Shown piece after piece: positions 49,715 to 63,399 of a stretch of DNA of 64,000 bases. The stretch covers positions 673,896 to 737,895 of the forward strand of contig NZ_JAHKRR010000002.1 of assembly GCF_018863395.1 (NCBI RefSeq), in the 5' to 3' direction. The stretch's first letter is position 1. Each line of letters begins with the position of its first letter. The stretch comes from Sinomicrobium weinanense (GTDB lineage Bacteria; Bacteroidota; Bacteroidia; Flavobacteriales; Flavobacteriaceae). The notes beneath the pieces are model-generated. The model worked only from the letters and a program-made list of their open reading frames with translations, was not told the DNA's origin and made no database searches. A program made the translations under genes and the position numbers.

Positions 49715-50797
49715 TTACGCTTTTAATATTTTCTCCTGGTGGTTGATTGATTCCTGGTGAATGGCCTTGAACATTTTCAGGACAAACTCCTCGCTCAACC
49801 CTTTTTCCTGGCCTTCGAGTATCATTCTTCCGAGGATCTCGTTCCAGCGTTTGCTCTGCAATACGGCTACGTTCTTCTGTTTTTTAAGCGCCCCTATCTC
49901 ATCGGATATCTTCATACGCCTGCCAAGGGTTTCAACAAGGCCGTTATCTATGACGTCGATCTGGGCACGGAGGGTTCCCAGCTTGTTGTTGTATTCGGCT
50001 TCGGCATCGGTTTCCTTTCTTATTTTCAGGTCTTGCATGATCTGGATAAGCCTTGAAGGGGTAACCTGCTGTGCGGCATCGCTCCAGGCGTTGTCCGGGT
50101 CGTTGTGGGTTTCGATCATCAATCCGTCGAAATTCAGGTCTAGTGCGGTCTGCGCTACGTCAAAGATCATGTCGCGTTTACCGGTGATGTGAGACGGGTC
50201 GCAGATCAGCGGCAGGTCGGGGAACCTGTTTTGCAGTTCAATGGCCAGTTGCCATTCGGGGATATTCCTGTATTTGCTCTTTTCGTAGGTAGAAAAGCCT
50301 CTGTGGATCACTCCCAGCTTTTTAATATTGGCCGAATGCAGGCGTTCTATTCCTCCGAGCCACAGGGCCAGGTCGGGGTTTACCGGGTTTTTTACCAGTA
50401 CCACCTTGTCTGTTCCGTTGAGGGCATCGGCTATTTCCTGTACGATAAACGGGCTCACGGTAGATCGTGCTCCGATCCAAAGCAGGTCTACGTCGTGCTC
50501 CAGGGCCAGTTTTACGTGGGCAGCGTTGGCCACTTCGGTAGCTGTAAGCATTCCGGTCTCTTCCTTGGCTTTTTGCAGCCATTTCAATCCCAGTGCTCCT
50601 ACACCTTCAAAATTACCGGGGCGTGTACGGGGTTTCCAGATCCCTGCACGCAGATAACTTACATCGCTATCTTTAAGCTCATGCGCTATTTTTAATACCT
50701 GTTCTTCTGTTTCGGCACTGCATGGCCCGGCAATGACCAGAGGGTGGTCCAGTCCCAGATCGTCCAGCCATGTTCTCATCTCTTTCGAATTTTCCAT
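49715..50797 (-). CDS. Fused DAHP synthase (type I beta) and chorismate mutase
   Basis: 360 residues. Residues 1-260 are the DAHP synthase barrel (IAGPCSAETEEQ, YLRAGIWKPRTRPGNFEGVG, ICDPSHITGKRDM, MIETHNDP), committing phosphoenolpyruvate and erythrose-4-phosphate to the aromatic pathway. Residues ~265-360 are an AroQ-type chorismate mutase (LRAQIDVIDNGLVETLGRRMKISDEIGALKKQKNV). The fusion joins the first step with the branch point to Phe and Tyr, and mutase-domain binding often provides feedback control. Part of the operon with pheA and tyrA. Confidence 0.95.
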   Translation of the reverse strand: MENSKEMRTWLDDLGLDHPLVIAGPCSAETEEQVLKIAHELKDSDVSYLRAGIWKPRTRPGNFEGVGALGLKWLQKAKEETGMLTATEVANAAHVKLALEHDVDLLWIGARSTVSPFIVQEIADALNGTDKVVLVKNPVNPDLALWLGGIERLHSANIKKLGVIHRGFSTYEKSKYRNIPEWQLAIELQNRFPDLPLICDPSHITGKRDMIFDVAQTALDLNFDGLMIETHNDPDNAWSDAAQQVTPSRLIQIMQDLKIRKETDAEAEYNNKLGTLRAQIDVIDNGLVETLGRRMKISDEIGALKKQKNVAVLQSKRWNEILGRMILEGQEKGLSEEFVLKMFKAIHQESINHQEKILKA

Positions 50798-50854: not shown

Positions 50855-50888
50855 GGAGGGGAGACGTACGGCCGTACGTCTCTACGGG
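50855..50888. repeat. Palindrome between tyrA and aroG/CM
   Basis: Perfect 22-bp core GAGACGTACGG and its complement (50861-50882), with outer CCCCG/CGGGG. Nearly identical to 51853-51874. Confidence 0.95.
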
Positions 50889-50907: not shown

Positions 50908-51771
50908 TCACGGGGTTGGGACGTTAATTCCCTTTAATATTTCTTTTATCCTGTTGGTGTTTTCCATTTCGTTATAGATGGCTTCGAAATCACCTTTTTC
51001 CATCAATTCCCTGAATTGTTGCAAATTGCCGATATACTCATCCAGGGTCTCTATGACATTGGCCTTGTTCTGTTCAAAAATAGGGGCCCACATGGCAGGG
51101 GAACTCTTGGCCAGGCGTACGGTGCTTTCGAAACCACTTCCCGCCATGTCAAAAATATCGCGTTCATTCTTTTCTTTTTCAATAACCGTCTTTCCCAACA
51201 TAAAAGAACTGATGTGTGACAAATGAGACACATAAGCAATATGCCGGTCGTGCGATGCCGGGTCCATGTACCGGATACGCATCCCGATGTCGGCAAACAG
51301 CTTCAGCACTTTTTCCTGTAACTTAAAGGCAGTCTTTTCTACCTCGCATATAATGTTCACCTTGTGTTTGTACAATCCTTTCAGGGCAGCCGACGGGCCG
51401 GAAAACTCCGTCCCGGCAATAGGGTGGGCCGCCAGGAAATTCCTCCGTTTGGGGTGATCGGCCACCGCTTCACAGATCAGGGACTTGGTAGACCCCACAT
51501 CAAATACCACCGCATCGTCACGGACCAGGTCCAGTATTTCGGGAAGCAGTCCCAGGCTTGTGCTCACGGGAATGGCAACAATAACGATATCAGCCTTTTC
51601 AAGGTCTTCCATACCGGCCTTTTTATCGATAAGCCCCAGGTCCAGGGCCTCGTTCAGGTGGTCTTCGTTCGTGTCAATCCCGTGGATCTCCGCATGCCCG
51701 CGTACCGATTTGATATCGAGGGCAAAAGATCCGCCTATCAGTCCGAGGCCTATTACGAATACGTTTGTCAT
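50908..51771 (-). CDS. tyrA: Prephenate dehydrogenase
   Basis: 287 residues. Oxidises prephenate to 4-hydroxyphenylpyruvate on the Tyr branch. Rossmann motif VIGLGLIGGSFA, VGSTKSLICEA, HPIAGTEFSGPSAA and SHLSHISSF with the catalytic His. No ACT domain. In operon with the aminotransferase upstream. Confidence 0.95.
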   Translation of the reverse strand: MTNVFVIGLGLIGGSFALDIKSVRGHAEIHGIDTNEDHLNEALDLGLIDKKAGMEDLEKADIVIVAIPVSTSLGLLPEILDLVRDDAVVFDVGSTKSLICEAVADHPKRRNFLAAHPIAGTEFSGPSAALKGLYKHKVNIICEVEKTAFKLQEKVLKLFADIGMRIRYMDPASHDRHIAYVSHLSHISSFMLGKTVIEKEKNERDIFDMAGSGFESTVRLAKSSPAMWAPIFEQNKANVIETLDEYIGNLQQFRELMEKGDFEAIYNEMENTNRIKEILKGINVPTP

Positions 51772-51852: not shown

Positions 51853-51874
51853 GAGACGTACAACCGTACGTCTC
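51853..51874. repeat. Palindrome between the aminotransferase and tyrA
   Basis: GAGACGTAC-AACC-GTACGTCTC: the 50861 palindrome with the central GG changed to AA. Confidence 0.9.
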
Positions 51875-51883
51875 TACATTTAA

Positions 51884-53029
51884 TTATATTCTGTTTATGG
51901 CTTCCTGTATTTTTTCCTTTGGAATGCAAAGGGAAAAACGGATATAGCCTTCGCCGTTTTTCCCGAAAATGGTTCCGGGGGTGATAAAAATGCTTTTATC
52001 ATACAGTATTTTATCGATAAAGGTTTCTGCGGAGGCTACGCTTTCCGGGAGTTTGGCCCAAATAAACATGCCCACTGCGTTTTTATCGTATGTACATCCC
52101 AGTTTTTCTGCCAGACGGTACATCAGTTCCCTTCGTTCTCCATATACATTATTGATGCTCTCGTACCAGTCCTCCGAACATTTCAGGGCGGCTATGGCCC
52201 CTTTCTGAATGCCGTAGAACATACCGCTGTCCATATTGCTCTTTACCTTCAGTATGGCGTTGATGTTCTTTTCATTTCCCAATACCATGCCCACACGCCA
52301 TCCGGCCATGTTGAACGTCTTGCTCAGGGAGTTGAGCTCCAGGGCTACGTCCTTTGCCCCTTCGGCCTGAAGAATACTCGACGGGGTATCGTTCAGCACA
52401 AAGCTATAAGGATTGTCATTGACCAGGAGTATTTTGTTTTTCCGGGCAAAGGCCACCAGTTTTGAATACAGTGCTTTGGTGGCATTGGTCCCGGTAGGCA
52501 TATGCGGATAGTTGAGCCACATGAGCTTTACGCTGCTCAGGTCTTCTTTTTCCAATGCATCGAGGTCGGGCAGCCAGCCGTTGCTTTCTGTCAGGTTGTA
52601 ATACCTGGGGGTTGCCCCTACAAGTTTGGTCACCGAAGTATAGGTCGGATACCCGGGGTCCGGGATCAGTACTTCATCGCCTTCGTTCAGAAAGGCCATG
52701 GAAATATGCATGATCCCTTCTTTAGACCCCATAAGCGGCAGGATCTCCGTATCTCTTTCCAGCGTCACTCCAAACCGCTCCCGGTAAAAACCCTTTATAC
52801 TTTCGCGCAGTTCCGGTAAGCCCTGGTAGCTCTGGTACTGGTGGGCCAGGGTATCTGCCACGGAGTCCTGCAATGCCTTTATGACCTCAGGAGCAGGGTG
52901 CAGGTCGGGGCTTCCGATGCCCATGTTTATGATCGGTTTTCCATCGGAAATAAGCTGCCTTACCTCCCGGAGCTTCCGGGAAAAGTAGTATTCTTCTACC
53001 GTATATAATCGTTTGGCTACCTCTATCAT
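51884..53029 (-). CDS. Class I/II aminotransferase of the aromatic operon
   Basis: 381 residues of the fold-type I PLP family. NMGIGSPDLHPAPEVI, LMGSKEGI, DPGYPTYTS, LNYPHMPTG, VNDNPYSF and the PLP Lys in LNSLSKTFNMAGWRVGM. Position between pheA and tyrA suggests it transaminates phenylpyruvate and 4-hydroxyphenylpyruvate, or prephenate. Its ATG overlaps the pheA stop by four bases. Confidence 0.92.
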   Translation of the reverse strand: MIEVAKRLYTVEEYYFSRKLREVRQLISDGKPIINMGIGSPDLHPAPEVIKALQDSVADTLAHQYQSYQGLPELRESIKGFYRERFGVTLERDTEILPLMGSKEGIMHISMAFLNEGDEVLIPDPGYPTYTSVTKLVGATPRYYNLTESNGWLPDLDALEKEDLSSVKLMWLNYPHMPTGTNATKALYSKLVAFARKNKILLVNDNPYSFVLNDTPSSILQAEGAKDVALELNSLSKTFNMAGWRVGMVLGNEKNINAILKVKSNMDSGMFYGIQKGAIAALKCSEDWYESINNVYGERRELMYRLAEKLGCTYDKNAVGMFIWAKLPESVASAETFIDKILYDKSIFITPGTIFGKNGEGYIRFSLCIPKEKIQEAINRI

Positions 53030-53853
53030 AGTTTTGCGTTTTTGTATTCACCGAGTATCTTAAACTCTTCTGTCATGATCTGCAACAGGGATTTTGCCTT
53101 TTTAAAATCGTCATACCTTTCGAAAGTGACATCCACGAAAAAGGAATATTTCCAGGGGGTTTCAATCACGGGAAGGGATTGTATCTTGGTCATGTTCAAC
53201 CGGCAATCGCTCATTACGTTGAGCACGGTGGCCAGGCTTCCGCGTTTGTGGTCGGTCATGAATTTTACCGACGCCTTGTTGATCTCTCCTTCAGGCAATA
53301 CGGAATTTTGGGTCTGTATGATCACAAAGCGGGTAGAATTGTCTTTTATGGTCTGTATATCATCGGCCAGTATTTCCATACCGAACAGTTCTGCCGCTGT
53401 TTTACTGGCTATGGCCCCTATGCCCTCGAGCTTGTTTTCCCGGATCCTTCGGGCCGTTTCGGCCGTATCGGCATCCTCTACGAGTTTTATATGCGGAAAC
53501 TGCTTAAAAAACCGTTTACACTGCAACAGGGCCATAGGATGTGAGTATACTTCCTTTATATCTTTAATCTCCTGGCCCGGCAAAGCCATCAGGTTATGGT
53601 GAATGTTTACATAGTGTTCTCCTATGATATGCAATTGATTACTGTCTATCAATGCATAATTGGGAATAATGGACCCGGCAATGGAATTTTCTATGGCCAT
53701 AACGGCACTGCCCACTGCTTTGTCCAGGAGACTGTCGACCAGAATATCGAAAGAAAGGCATTCCAGGATATCAACATTATCCCTGAAGTATTCTCTTGCC
53801 ACCTGGTGGTGAAAAGAACCTTTTATTCCCTGTATGGCTACTTTTTCGTTCAT
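53026..53853 (-). CDS. pheA: Prephenate dehydratase with ACT domain
   Basis: 275 residues. Converts prephenate to phenylpyruvate. Catalytic region VAIQGIKGSFHHQVAREYF and NSTRFVIIQT (TRF with catalytic Thr), AIENSIAGSIIPNYALI; C-terminal ACT domain (KRGSLATVLNVMSDCRLNMTKIQSLPVIETPWKYSFFVDV; GAL/ESRP-type site reads KIQSLPV) for Phe feedback. First structural gene of the operon, behind the attenuator at 53901-54035. Confidence 0.95.
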   Translation of the reverse strand: MNEKVAIQGIKGSFHHQVAREYFRDNVDILECLSFDILVDSLLDKAVGSAVMAIENSIAGSIIPNYALIDSNQLHIIGEHYVNIHHNLMALPGQEIKDIKEVYSHPMALLQCKRFFKQFPHIKLVEDADTAETARRIRENKLEGIGAIASKTAAELFGMEILADDIQTIKDNSTRFVIIQTQNSVLPEGEINKASVKFMTDHKRGSLATVLNVMSDCRLNMTKIQSLPVIETPWKYSFFVDVTFERYDDFKKAKSLLQIMTEEFKILGEYKNAKL

Positions 53854-53900: not shown

Positions 53901-53928
53901 AAAAAAAAGTCCCGGAAAAACCGGGACT
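53901..53928 (-). terminator. Attenuator terminator before pheA
   Basis: Minus strand: AGTCCCGG, TTTTT, CCGGGACT, then eight T. It lies between the leader ORF and pheA. Its 5' arm GTCCCG can instead pair with CGGGAC at 53966-53971 inside the leader ORF (codons 22-24), which would prevent the terminator from forming. Confidence 0.92.
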
Positions 53929-53957
53929 CGTCATAATATCTTTGTGTTCAAAACAAC

Positions 53958-54035
53958 CTATAACCGTCCCGTTCTCCCTCTAAAAAAGTAAAAGAAGAAA
54001 AAATAGAAGTTCCAGTTATAAGAAGTCTTGATCAT
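53958..54035 (-). CDS. Phe/Tyr-rich leader peptide (attenuator of the pheA operon)
   Basis: 25 codons from ATG 54035 to TAG 53958, too short for ordinary gene calling. Residues 9-18 read NFYFFFFYFF: seven Phe and two Tyr in ten codons, with Tyr6 and Trp8 also present. Placement between a promoter-like element (TTG, 19, TACTTTAG near 54047-54076) and a terminator just before pheA is the arrangement of translational attenuators: a ribosome stalled for lack of charged tRNA-Phe/Tyr on codons 10-18 would leave CGGGAC (codons 22-24) free to pair with the terminator arm; a ribosome reaching the stop covers it. The function is inference from sequence; the composition and geometry are directly visible. 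Confidence 0.88.
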   Translation of the reverse strand: MIKTSYNWNFYFFFFYFFRGRTGRL

Positions 54036-54186
54036 TGTTTACTCCATTTGACGCTGCTAAAGTAATTATAAATTTGAAATAGCCAACACCCGAAAAGGAT
54101 TTTTTTTGAATTTTCTGAAAAAACCACAAAAAATGTCAAATCGGGAATATAATGTGGTTTTAATTAGCATATTAAGATTACCAAAT

Positions 54187-54390: not shown

Positions 54391-55308
54391 ATGTCTATAG
54401 AAGTTACCCATATCTCTAAAGCCTACGGAAGTCAGAAGGCCCTTAACGATGTATCCTTTTCCCTGAAAAAGGGCGAGGTTGTCGGGTTTCTCGGTCCCAA
54501 CGGCGCCGGAAAGTCTACCATGATGAAGATACTCACCACTTACATTGCTGCCAATGGCGGACAGGCCCGGGTGAACGGTTTTGACGTGGCCACTCAAAAA
54601 AAGGATGTACAGAAAAGCATAGGTTACCTGCCCGAACACAATCCTTTATATCTCGATATGTACGTAAAGGAATACCTGGGCTTCAGCGCTTCCATTTACG
54701 GATCAGCGGGAAAAAAGACCGGCAAGGAAAGGATCAAAGAGGTCATTGATCTTACGGGGCTCTCCCCTGAAGCACATAAAAAGATAGGGCAGCTTTCCAA
54801 GGGATACCGCCAGCGCACCGGACTGGCTGCGGCCATGCTTCATGACCCGGAAGTGCTTATCCTGGACGAGCCCACCACAGGCCTCGACCCCAACCAACTG
54901 ATAGAAATAAGGAGTTTGATACGCGATATGGGACAGGAAAAGACCGTACTGCTCTCCACACATATCATGCAGGAAGTCGAAGCCATTTGCGACCGTGTTA
55001 TAATCATTAACAAAGGGGAGATAGTGGCCGATAAAAAACTGGCTTCCCTCCGTGAAGGGACAGAACAGATCATCGAAGTGGAATTTGATTATCGCGTGGA
55101 ACCGTTATTGCTGGAAAACCTTCCCCAGGTACAGTCGGTGAACAATATTTATGATTTTGTTTACGAGCTGCGGTTCAATACAACCAAAGACATGCGTCCG
55201 GCCGTGTTCGATTTTGCCCATGACAATGGGTTAAAAACCCTGAAGCTGAACAAGAAGAACAAAAACCTGGAAAGTTTGTTCCGGGAATTGACGGGGAACA
55301 AACCGTAG
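54391..55308 (+). CDS. gldA: Gliding motility ABC transporter ATPase GldA
   Basis: 305 residues. MSIEVTHISKAYGSQKALNDVSFSLKKGEVVGFLGPNGAGKSTMMKILTTY starts the NBD; Q-loop YLPEHNPLYLDMYV, signature QLSKGYRQRTGL, Walker B LILDEPTTGLDPNQ, H-loop STHIMQE; the C-terminal region matches GldA length. Works with GldF/GldG, not in this window, in Flavobacteriia gliding. The TAG stop lies inside a dispersed palindrome (55305-55327). Confidence 0.92.
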   Translation: MSIEVTHISKAYGSQKALNDVSFSLKKGEVVGFLGPNGAGKSTMMKILTTYIAANGGQARVNGFDVATQKKDVQKSIGYLPEHNPLYLDMYVKEYLGFSASIYGSAGKKTGKERIKEVIDLTGLSPEAHKKIGQLSKGYRQRTGLAAAMLHDPEVLILDEPTTGLDPNQLIEIRSLIRDMGQEKTVLLSTHIMQEVEAICDRVIIINKGEIVADKKLASLREGTEQIIEVEFDYRVEPLLLENLPQVQSVNNIYDFVYELRFNTTKDMRPAVFDFAHDNGLKTLKLNKKNKNLESLFRELTGNKP

Positions 55309-55335: not shown

Positions 55336-55923
55336 TCATAACAAATCGCCTTTTTCCCAATTTCCTGGATTATCCGAAATATATTTTACAATCCGGTCAT
55401 ATTCCTGTTTGTCCCTGATAATACGATCGTAAAACCCCGATTGCCACGCAAAACTCGGGATAATCGGGCGGGCATTTCGGGTCACCCCAATTTTAAACCC
55501 ACGAATAACAGATGCCAGGTTTTTGTATTGCGGCCCGAATTGGTTTTTCGCGGTATTACCATGTGTAGGGATACAATGCATTGTAGTAGGGGCGCAATGC
55601 ATTGCGCCCCTACGGGCCGATTCGTCCCGCATATTATATTGATTTTCCCCGATAACGATAATCCCGTGAAAATGATTGGGCATCACCACAAATTCACCCA
55701 ATTTTAAATTCATATCCAGCCGTAAAACAGGCCCTTTAATCCATTCTTCCTCTACAATTTTGCCAATATCCGACGGTACCATTTTTCTATGATCTATTTT
55801 CCCAAAACAGCACTCCCTGTTTTTGGTACAAATGGTAATAAAATATGCACCTTCTCTGGCATAATCATATCCGGGCAGTCGAATTGAACGCTTGTTGTGT
55901 TTTTCAGGATCGTATTTCATCAT
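55336..55923 (-). CDS. REP-associated tyrosine transposase (RAYT, Y1/HUH family)
   Basis: 195 residues. HUH signature at 81-90 (MPNHFHGIIV, His84 and His86), start motif RSIRLPGYDYAREGAYFITICTKNRECCFG, and the C-terminal block AWQSGFYDRIIRDKQEYDRIVKYISDNPGNW typical of TnpA-REP proteins; Tyr165 is a plausible nucleophile, though I cannot fix it without alignment. Residues ~102-121 (SARRGAMHCAPTTMHCIPTH) are encoded by one full and one half dispersed palindrome inserted in frame. Such enzymes are single-copy domesticated relatives of IS200 transposases that cut REP hairpins. Palindromes of the same family flank the gene and occur elsewhere in the window. Confidence 0.93.
   Translation of the reverse strand: MMKYDPEKHNKRSIRLPGYDYAREGAYFITICTKNRECCFGKIDHRKMVPSDIGKIVEEEWIKGPVLRLDMNLKLGEFVVMPNHFHGIIVIGENQYNMRDESARRGAMHCAPTTMHCIPTHGNTAKNQFGPQYKNLASVIRGFKIGVTRNARPIIPSFAWQSGFYDRIIRDKQEYDRIVKYISDNPGNWEKGDLL
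55565..55613. repeat. Half and full dispersed palindromes inside the RAYT gene
   Basis: 55565-55585 is GTAGGGATACAATGC/ATTGTA (right arm truncated); 55586-55613 is a perfect 28-bp palindrome with arms GTAGGGGCGCAATG. Both are read through in frame by the RAYT gene. Confidence 0.97.
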
Positions 55924-63179: not shown

Positions 63180-63288
63180 AAGATGATACGGTTAATGACC
63201 GTCTTAGCTATAAATATCGGGCTTATAACGATCGGTTAAATTATAGAAAGTTATCAGGAAACAGGGGAAAAATACGGGAAGTATTTTT
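63180..63288 (-). promoter_or_regulatory. Expression-platform region of the SAM riboswitch
   Basis: Directly downstream of the aptamer is AAAAATAC/GTATTTTT, a weak stem (63268-63288). Further on, TGATAAC (63250-63256) is the exact complement of the aptamer's GTTATCA (63384-63390), so the P1 strand could pair with it when SAM is absent. No strong terminator is present. Confidence 0.5.
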
Positions 63289-63390
63289 GTCATCTGTCCC
63301 TGCCGATGCAGGGTAGAATTTAGCACCTTCTCCGCAGTGGAGGGTTGCTAAGGCTTCGCCGGGTCTAGTCCCTCTGCCTTTCTTGATAAC
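63289..63390 (-). ncRNA. SAM-I (S-box) riboswitch
   Basis: Minus strand: P1 GTTATC/GATGAC, then AAGAAAGGCAGAGGGAC and the kink-turn GGCGAAGCC, the core TTAGCAACC, the P3 stem CTCC/GGAG followed by AAGGTGCTAAATTC, and a P4 hairpin CCCTGC/GCAGGG. All are canonical S-box parts. It precedes the metH-metH-metF operon, so SAM should lower methionine synthesis. Confidence 0.96.
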
Positions 63391-63399
63391 TTAATTCAA

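Follow-up and report, generated by a model that had tools for sequence, protein, structure and literature searches.

The pheA leader of E. coli (pheL) combines a short Phe-rich ORF with mutually exclusive antiterminator and terminator structures, has pheA downstream, and senses phenylalanine. Vitreschak and others reportedly predicted leader-peptide attenuators in Bacteroidetes/Chlorobi in 2004, and to our knowledge the regulation of amino-acid synthesis in Bacteroidota has been little studied. A 2021 study of Flavobacterium psychrophilum reports that pheA is preceded by a structured 5' element that is conserved, occurs in other Flavobacteriaceae genera as well and has no Rfam match, and it speaks of 'strong clues' for leader-peptide attenuation at amino-acid operons (PMC9723704).

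Here we analysed a stretch of 64,000 nucleotides from Sinomicrobium weinanense (the window), in which the leader ahead of pheA is very probably a ribosome-mediated transcription attenuator. An ORF, its control codons, a promoter-like box, a terminator and mutually exclusive pairings can all be read in the DNA, as can their conservation; the attenuator probably senses Phe and Tyr jointly. The initial annotation had called this translational attenuation; the attenuation itself stands, with leader, terminator and antiterminator all conserved, whereas 'translational' gives way to ribosome-mediated transcription attenuation.

The leader and the operon behind it

The elements of the leader, all on the minus strand, are as follows:

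54084..54086, minus strand: TTG, upstream (-33-like) promoter element, 19 nt from the -7-like box
54057..54064, minus strand: TACTTTAG, -7-like box of the form TAnnTTnG, conserved upstream of leaders
53958..54035, minus strand: leader peptide ORF of 25 codons, MIKTSYNWNFYFFFFYFFRGRTGRL, frame kept in orthologues
53982..54008, minus strand: control codons 10-18, nine Phe/Tyr codons in succession, a run unique in the assembly
54013..54022, minus strand: region 1, CUUAUAACUG, codons 5-8; pairs with 53966-53957 in the best fold (10-bp helix), weak over all loci
53966..53971, minus strand: region 2, CGGGAC, 5' strand of the antiterminator, covarying with region 3 over 141 loci
53957..53966, minus strand: CGGUUAUAGG, pairs with region 1 in the best fold; it takes in the final base of region 2 and overlaps the stop codon of the leader
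53922..53927, minus strand: region 3, GUCCCG, common to antiterminator and terminator (pairing and covariation)
53909..53914, minus strand: region 4, CGGGAC, 3' strand of the terminator (pairing)
53907..53929, minus strand: intrinsic terminator hairpin found by sequence scan, with its T run (T8) at 53908-53901

The 25-codon ORF with seven Phe and two Tyr in residues 9-18, as given in the initial annotation, proved exact (54035-53958, minus strand), these ten residues reading NFYFFFFYFF. With nine Phe/Tyr per ten residues the leader exceeds the runner-up, which has six, among the 1017 ATG-initiated ORFs of 8-70 aa that the window contains, nested starts included, and nine consecutive TWY codons occur a single time in the 5.36-Mb assembly (98.5% complete). 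The terminator with T8 that had been placed between the ORF and pheA is present at 53929-53907, with nine stem pairs if a G-T is included and a 5-nt loop. The competing pairing was likewise borne out, as CGGGAC (53971-53966, codons 22-24) complements GTCCCG (53927-53922) in the left arm of the terminator. The leader RNA as a whole folds at -44.8 kcal/mol (z = -4.7 versus dinucleotide shuffles).

Upstream of the ORF, a TAnnTTnG box was found within 70 nt of 98 of the 102 family and named leaders, compared with 15% of shuffles, and when these 98 leaders are aligned on the box TT(T/G)(G/T) is enriched at the offset of the TTG, which in the window begins 22 nt ahead of TACTTTAG. The -7 box of F. 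psychrophilum is given as TAnnTTTG (PMC9723704).

The leader is followed by four genes on the same strand:

53026..53853, minus strand: pheA, prephenate dehydratase, first gene of the operon (Pfam PF00800, 3.9e-57)
51884..53029, minus strand: aminotransferase, class I/II, overlapping pheA by 4 nt (Pfam PF00155)
50908..51771, minus strand: tyrA, prephenate dehydrogenase (NF006307, 392 bits against a cut-off of 295)
49715..50797, minus strand: DAHP synthase / chorismate mutase fusion, aroG-type (Pfam PF00793 and PF01817)

The amino acids that would be sensed are thus the products of the genes downstream (pheA, aminotransferase, tyrA and DAHP synthase), as in an attenuator. The window's PheA shares 86% identity with its counterparts in S. 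oceani and S. pectinilyticum. In 74 loci the downstream DNA extended to 4.8 kb or more; there tblastn at 1e-10 found the order pheA-aminotransferase-tyrA-aroG in 63, the remainder being pheA-aroG (7), pheA-aminotransferase-aroG (3) and pheA alone (1); in operons scored as lacking tyrA the gene may merely have diverged past the 1e-10 cut-off.

Since the nearest gene upstream of the leader (54391-55308) is divergently oriented, the terminator would meet only transcripts bound for pheA, and we see none other that it could serve. A scan of both intercistronic gaps (~110 nt each) returned no minus-strand terminator, so that control of all four genes by the attenuator is likely, although both gaps contain REP-like palindromes. 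These palindromes (GAGACGTACGGNNGTACGTCTC, at 50861-50882 and 51853-51874 of the window) have 31 forward and 32 reverse matches in the genome at up to three mismatches, mostly the same sites on both strands, compared with 0 for a reversed control pattern. A possible source of the palindromes is an ORF at 55336-55923 (minus strand) with a sub-threshold resemblance to REP-associated tyrosine transposases (NF047646: 54 bits where the cut-off is 80, E 1.6e-14). Elsewhere in the window, a SAM riboswitch (RF00162, 82.7 bits) lies at 63287-63392 on the minus strand, and the ORFs downstream of it look, on ORF reading without a family search, like genes for methionine synthase and methylenetetrahydrofolate reductase.

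Conservation of the leader among relatives

Of 100 family genomes searched, 84 gave a PheA match, the genome of the window among them. We called a leader where an ATG-initiated ORF of 10-60 aa contained at least six Phe/Tyr in ten residues and a terminator stood between the ORF and pheA, all within 450 nt. This rule called 79 of the 84 genomes, again counting the window's own, and all 23 named loci, which may overlap with the family set. Calling leaders by Phe/Tyr count alone left five family misses, of which reading by eye and more upstream DNA rescued three, bringing the leader to 82 of 84 genomes. At one of these (L026) the run and the terminator are seen and the ORF start lies beyond the contig edge; at the second (L030) the leader is present and its terminator lies 361 nt ahead of pheA; at the third (L067, seen in the L213 fetch) the leader MNTTVYTYQTWNYFFFSKRNETSYV, with five Phe/Tyr in ten, lies ~650 nt upstream of pheA. 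The two absences are L084 and L091, where no leader was found (over 373 nt upstream at L091); at L084 the rest of the operon is also absent from the stretch examined. The L067/L213 locus carries ~500 nt of extra DNA between attenuator and pheA, in which near-identical repeats of ~100 nt, each with a GC-rich hairpin, were read by eye.

Phe codons are U-rich and can be imitated by low-complexity DNA, and the leader might in principle be U-rich intergenic DNA that reads as Phe/Tyr by chance beside an ordinary terminator. Against this, none of 1760 shuffled upstream regions contained a Phe/Tyr-rich ORF with a terminator, and none of 205 control regions passed the rule (0/29 upstream of ilvD, one of 30 loci having been dropped for too little upstream DNA, and 0/176 inside pheA). 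Together with a conserved frame and pairing, the surplus of synonymous and Phe-Tyr changes and the covariation of the arms described below, this makes a chance origin hardly conceivable.

Beyond the family the leader becomes patchier. In the order, PheA was found in 31 of 60 genomes, and 13 of the 29 newly fetched loci passed the rule (6 of 6 from the same family, 7 of 23 others) while 16 failed; one further order locus (L214) had neither leader ORF nor terminator. In the class, with PheA in 39 of 149 genomes, 12 of 26 newly fetched loci passed and 14 failed, and of nine further loci (L204-L212) four had both parts, two the ORF only and three neither. A phylum-wide search found PheA in 128 of 148 genomes; all 14 new loci passed (7 same-family, 4 same-class, 3 outside the class), a sample biased by being drawn from the best 30 of the 128 genomes. 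Among 20 weak PheA matches outside the class, hand-picked further down the list, none had a leader within the 700 nt searched. In the ten longer (fused) genes checked among these 20, the distance from the match back to the gene start is no more than 276 to 483 nt, which leaves about 220 nt or more of the 700-nt search beyond it. The search of orthologues suggested in the initial annotation therefore finds Phe/Tyr frame, terminator and antiterminator recurring in 82 of the 84 family genomes with pheA and in about half of the more distant order and class loci, so the attenuator reading withstood the test of frame loss in orthologues that the annotation had set.

The pairing itself was examined over the 141 loci that passed the rule, scoring the best helix between the left arm of the terminator and the DNA after the Phe/Tyr run. 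The mean score of this antiterminator helix was 16.5, versus 10.1 (sd 2.2) for shuffles given equal register freedom, of which 3.2% reached the score of their own locus. Replacing an arm by one from a locus with a different core lowered the score from 16.3 to 11.8 in the 102 family and named loci (11% of 5870 swaps reaching the locus's own score) and from 17.2 to 12.0 in the 39 wider loci (15% of 1354). The cores mostly change jointly, GTCCCG occurring with CGGGAC, GTCTCG with CGAGAC or CGAGGC, and GTCCTG with CAGGGC or AGGACT; some loci have a poor helix (L087, score 10; L111, 10.5). Covariation of the arms, as seen in these comparisons, is a requirement of alternative pairing.

The same covariation bears on the output of the switch. 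If the leader sensed Phe/Tyr and its output were something other than intrinsic termination, the stalled ribosome shielding the mRNA or blocking Rho, the seven leaders in which our scan detected no terminator (L120, L130, L155, L160, L163, L205 and L206) would be accounted for. A terminator nevertheless accompanies all 79 family leaders called by the rule, and its arm covaries with region 2, which makes such an output very improbable.

For spacing we left out six of the 141 loci, whose helix scored below 13, and measured the other 135. From the final Phe/Tyr codon in the best ten-residue stretch to the start of region 2 the median distance is 11 nt (IQR 10-14). Measured from the stop codon, the position of region 2 has an IQR of -17 to -9, and in 22 of the 135 the stop codon comes no later than region 2. 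The tight spacing to the codon run and the looser spacing to the stop suggest that selection holds the distance from stalled ribosome to antiterminator more firmly than the end of the ORF.

For the coding signal we compared 124 distinct 10-codon blocks in 168 pairs that were one to five bases apart. Synonymous changes made up 199 of the differences (33%), Phe-Tyr exchanges 161 (27%) and other changes 236 (40%), versus 23%, 4% and 73% expected under a simple transition/transversion weighting. Phe-Tyr exchanges thus take about six times their expected share, an approximate effect size, the pairs being non-independent and the blocks aligned without gaps. Five Sinomicrobium-type leaders differ within the nine-codon run at third positions only. 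These patterns suggest that Phe and Tyr are equivalent in the leader, which would fit an operon that makes both.

A conserved frame and Phe/Tyr content could also mark a small functional aromatic peptide, the terminator being incidental. The residues outside the run vary by clade, however, and track the RNA pairing (RTGLL/GTGLL with CGGGAC, NEALYV with CGAGGC), and the position of the stop codon shifts relative to region 2, so we consider a functional peptide very improbable indeed.

A narrower possibility is that the attenuator senses Phe only, with the Tyr codons tolerated as fillers, since they differ from Phe codons by a single base and maintain a U/A-rich arm. The first gene is pheA, Phe is the more frequent residue (743 versus 498 Tyr over the 141 leaders), and the E. 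coli pheA leader responds to Phe. Yet Phe-Tyr exchange is a transversion and still exceeds its expectation as above, at least two Tyr are present in 140 of 141 leaders, and tyrA was found in 63 of the 74 downstream stretches; we therefore hold sensing of Phe alone to be possible, though rather unlikely. The joint sensing of Phe and Tyr proposed in the initial annotation gains indirect support from the interchange of the two residues and the near-universal Tyr codons. Trp codons, present in 83 of 141 leaders, leave room for a weak response to a third aromatic amino acid. We do not claim Trp as a third signal: Asn and Thr are likewise common in leaders, and the window's 1:2 helix takes up some of the Trp region.

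Predicted folding and the proposed switch

The leader of the window was folded with a masked ribosome footprint of four different sizes, assuming an RNA start at 54050. In the full-length RNA, the antiterminator (2:3) has a probability of 0.87-0.99 with all four footprints when the A site is at codons 10 and 11; it is lost between codons 12 and 15, depending on the footprint, and is 0.00 with the A site at codons 15-26 or with no ribosome. Wherever 2:3 was 0.00 at the positions tested, the terminator (3:4) had a probability of 1.00. The terminator thus prevails from codon 13-15 on, according to footprint, so that the later part of the run could antiterminate only kinetically. In an RNA ending just past region 3, a ribosome stalled at codons 7-16 gives 2:3 in every case and one stalled at codon 20 or later never does; 2:3 also wins without a ribosome (probability 0.99). 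Because 2:3 can form ribosome-free before region 4 is made, the ribosome-free outcome would depend on refolding via the 1:2 helix. In these models, folding with ribosome footprints switches as attenuation demands.

The 1:2 helix itself is part of the best fold in the window (54022-54013 with 53966-53957, 10 bp). Across loci its signal is weak, with 26% of shuffles matching the score of their own locus. For 21 window-type leaders RNAalifold keeps the 3' partner but shifts the register of its pairing to codons 7-10, and the consensus fold of 30 NEALYV-type leaders contained no 1:2-like helix. With a quarter of shuffles equalling it and consensus folds disagreeing on the register, we dropped this helix as a general proof and use it for the window only.

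The proposed switch would operate as follows. Transcription would start just downstream of the TACTTTAG box, and a ribosome would begin the 25-codon leader. With ample charged tRNA-Phe, and probably tRNA-Tyr too, it would reach the stop codon and cover region 2 (CGGGAC); regions 3 and 4 would then pair and the polymerase would terminate ahead of pheA. Should either charged tRNA be scarce, the ribosome would wait in the Phe/Tyr run, covering region 1 and leaving region 2 free to pair with region 3, so that no terminator would form and transcription would run on into pheA and the downstream genes. Without a ribosome, the RNA is predicted to end up in the terminator, by way of the 1:2 helix. In this scheme we infer translation of the leader, stalling and read-through on starvation, as well as control of the four genes and Tyr as a signal alongside Phe.

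Relation to known attenuators

Leaders of the same layout, an ORF rich in the product amino acid followed by a terminator, occur elsewhere in the genome. A His-rich leader (MNPNVLHHHHFFTCTQAR) with a terminator precedes hisG (L178) and a Trp-rich one (MQLILNIAWWWNNLRQKS) with a terminator precedes trpE (L181), while upstream of ilvD at 998680-999633 (L183) two Ile/Val-rich leader ORFs, MKTNFIHIITVIVIVIISP and MQMVHQIVIIIIVIVNSLPG, stand in tandem with a terminator-like hairpin behind each. They differ from the pheA leader in their amino acids and, at ilvD, in being tandem. At the two homoserine dehydrogenase (thrA) loci L179 and L180 the DNA covered ended short of the gene start. Under a loose rule, such a leader occurs at least once in 15 of the 30 ilvD loci examined, and L183, L220 and L244 each carry two whose hairpins are of different types. 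With His, Trp and Ile/Val leaders in one genome, leader-peptide attenuation looks like a habit of the organism.

Vitreschak and others are said to have predicted their leader-peptide candidates in the same phylum as the window. Rfam returned no T-box or other cis-element in the window's leader at cut-off, its 11 relaxed-threshold matches each falling below the family cut-off, and no match at cut-off in four other pheA loci or in the his, trp and ilvD loci. From titles and abstracts we recognised no description of the Phe/Tyr leader itself, in a search that covered few subscription journals. The initial annotation knew of no described example; this needs amending in that a pheA 5' element has been reported in the F. 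psychrophilum study (PMC9723704), and it stands in that no description of the Phe/Tyr leader was recognised. That element shares gene and family with the window, and the study proposes leader-peptide attenuation for amino-acid operons; in its section 19 the pheA element comes with neither a sequence nor a peptide nor a pairing and is not itself stated to be a leader-peptide case (PMC9723704).

The Rfam model of the E. coli leader (RF01859, Phe_leader) aligns over its full length to 53901-54020, on the correct strand and in register. The score, 17.3 bits (E 2), falls far short of the cut-off of 55 and does not support kinship as a sequence family. In contrast to pheL, the window's leader has many Tyr codons and is followed by genes for aminotransferase, tyrA and DAHP synthase as well. 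We see about an even chance that the leaders form an attenuator family throughout the class of the Flavobacteriales, one in which a single leader reads Phe and Tyr interchangeably, so that one RNA monitors the two end products of the operon under its control, the entry enzyme DAHP synthase included; such a family would be old in the class and have no detectable sequence kinship to proteobacterial pheL.

The switch is precise and testable, with defined pairing partners, and is present in 82 of the 84 sampled family genomes with a detected pheA. If Phe and Tyr are indeed sensed together, it would be a compact coupling of two end products to one operon. As a kind of switch it is known, and a pheA 5' element had already been reported in the family; the joint sensing of Phe and Tyr is the part worth testing.
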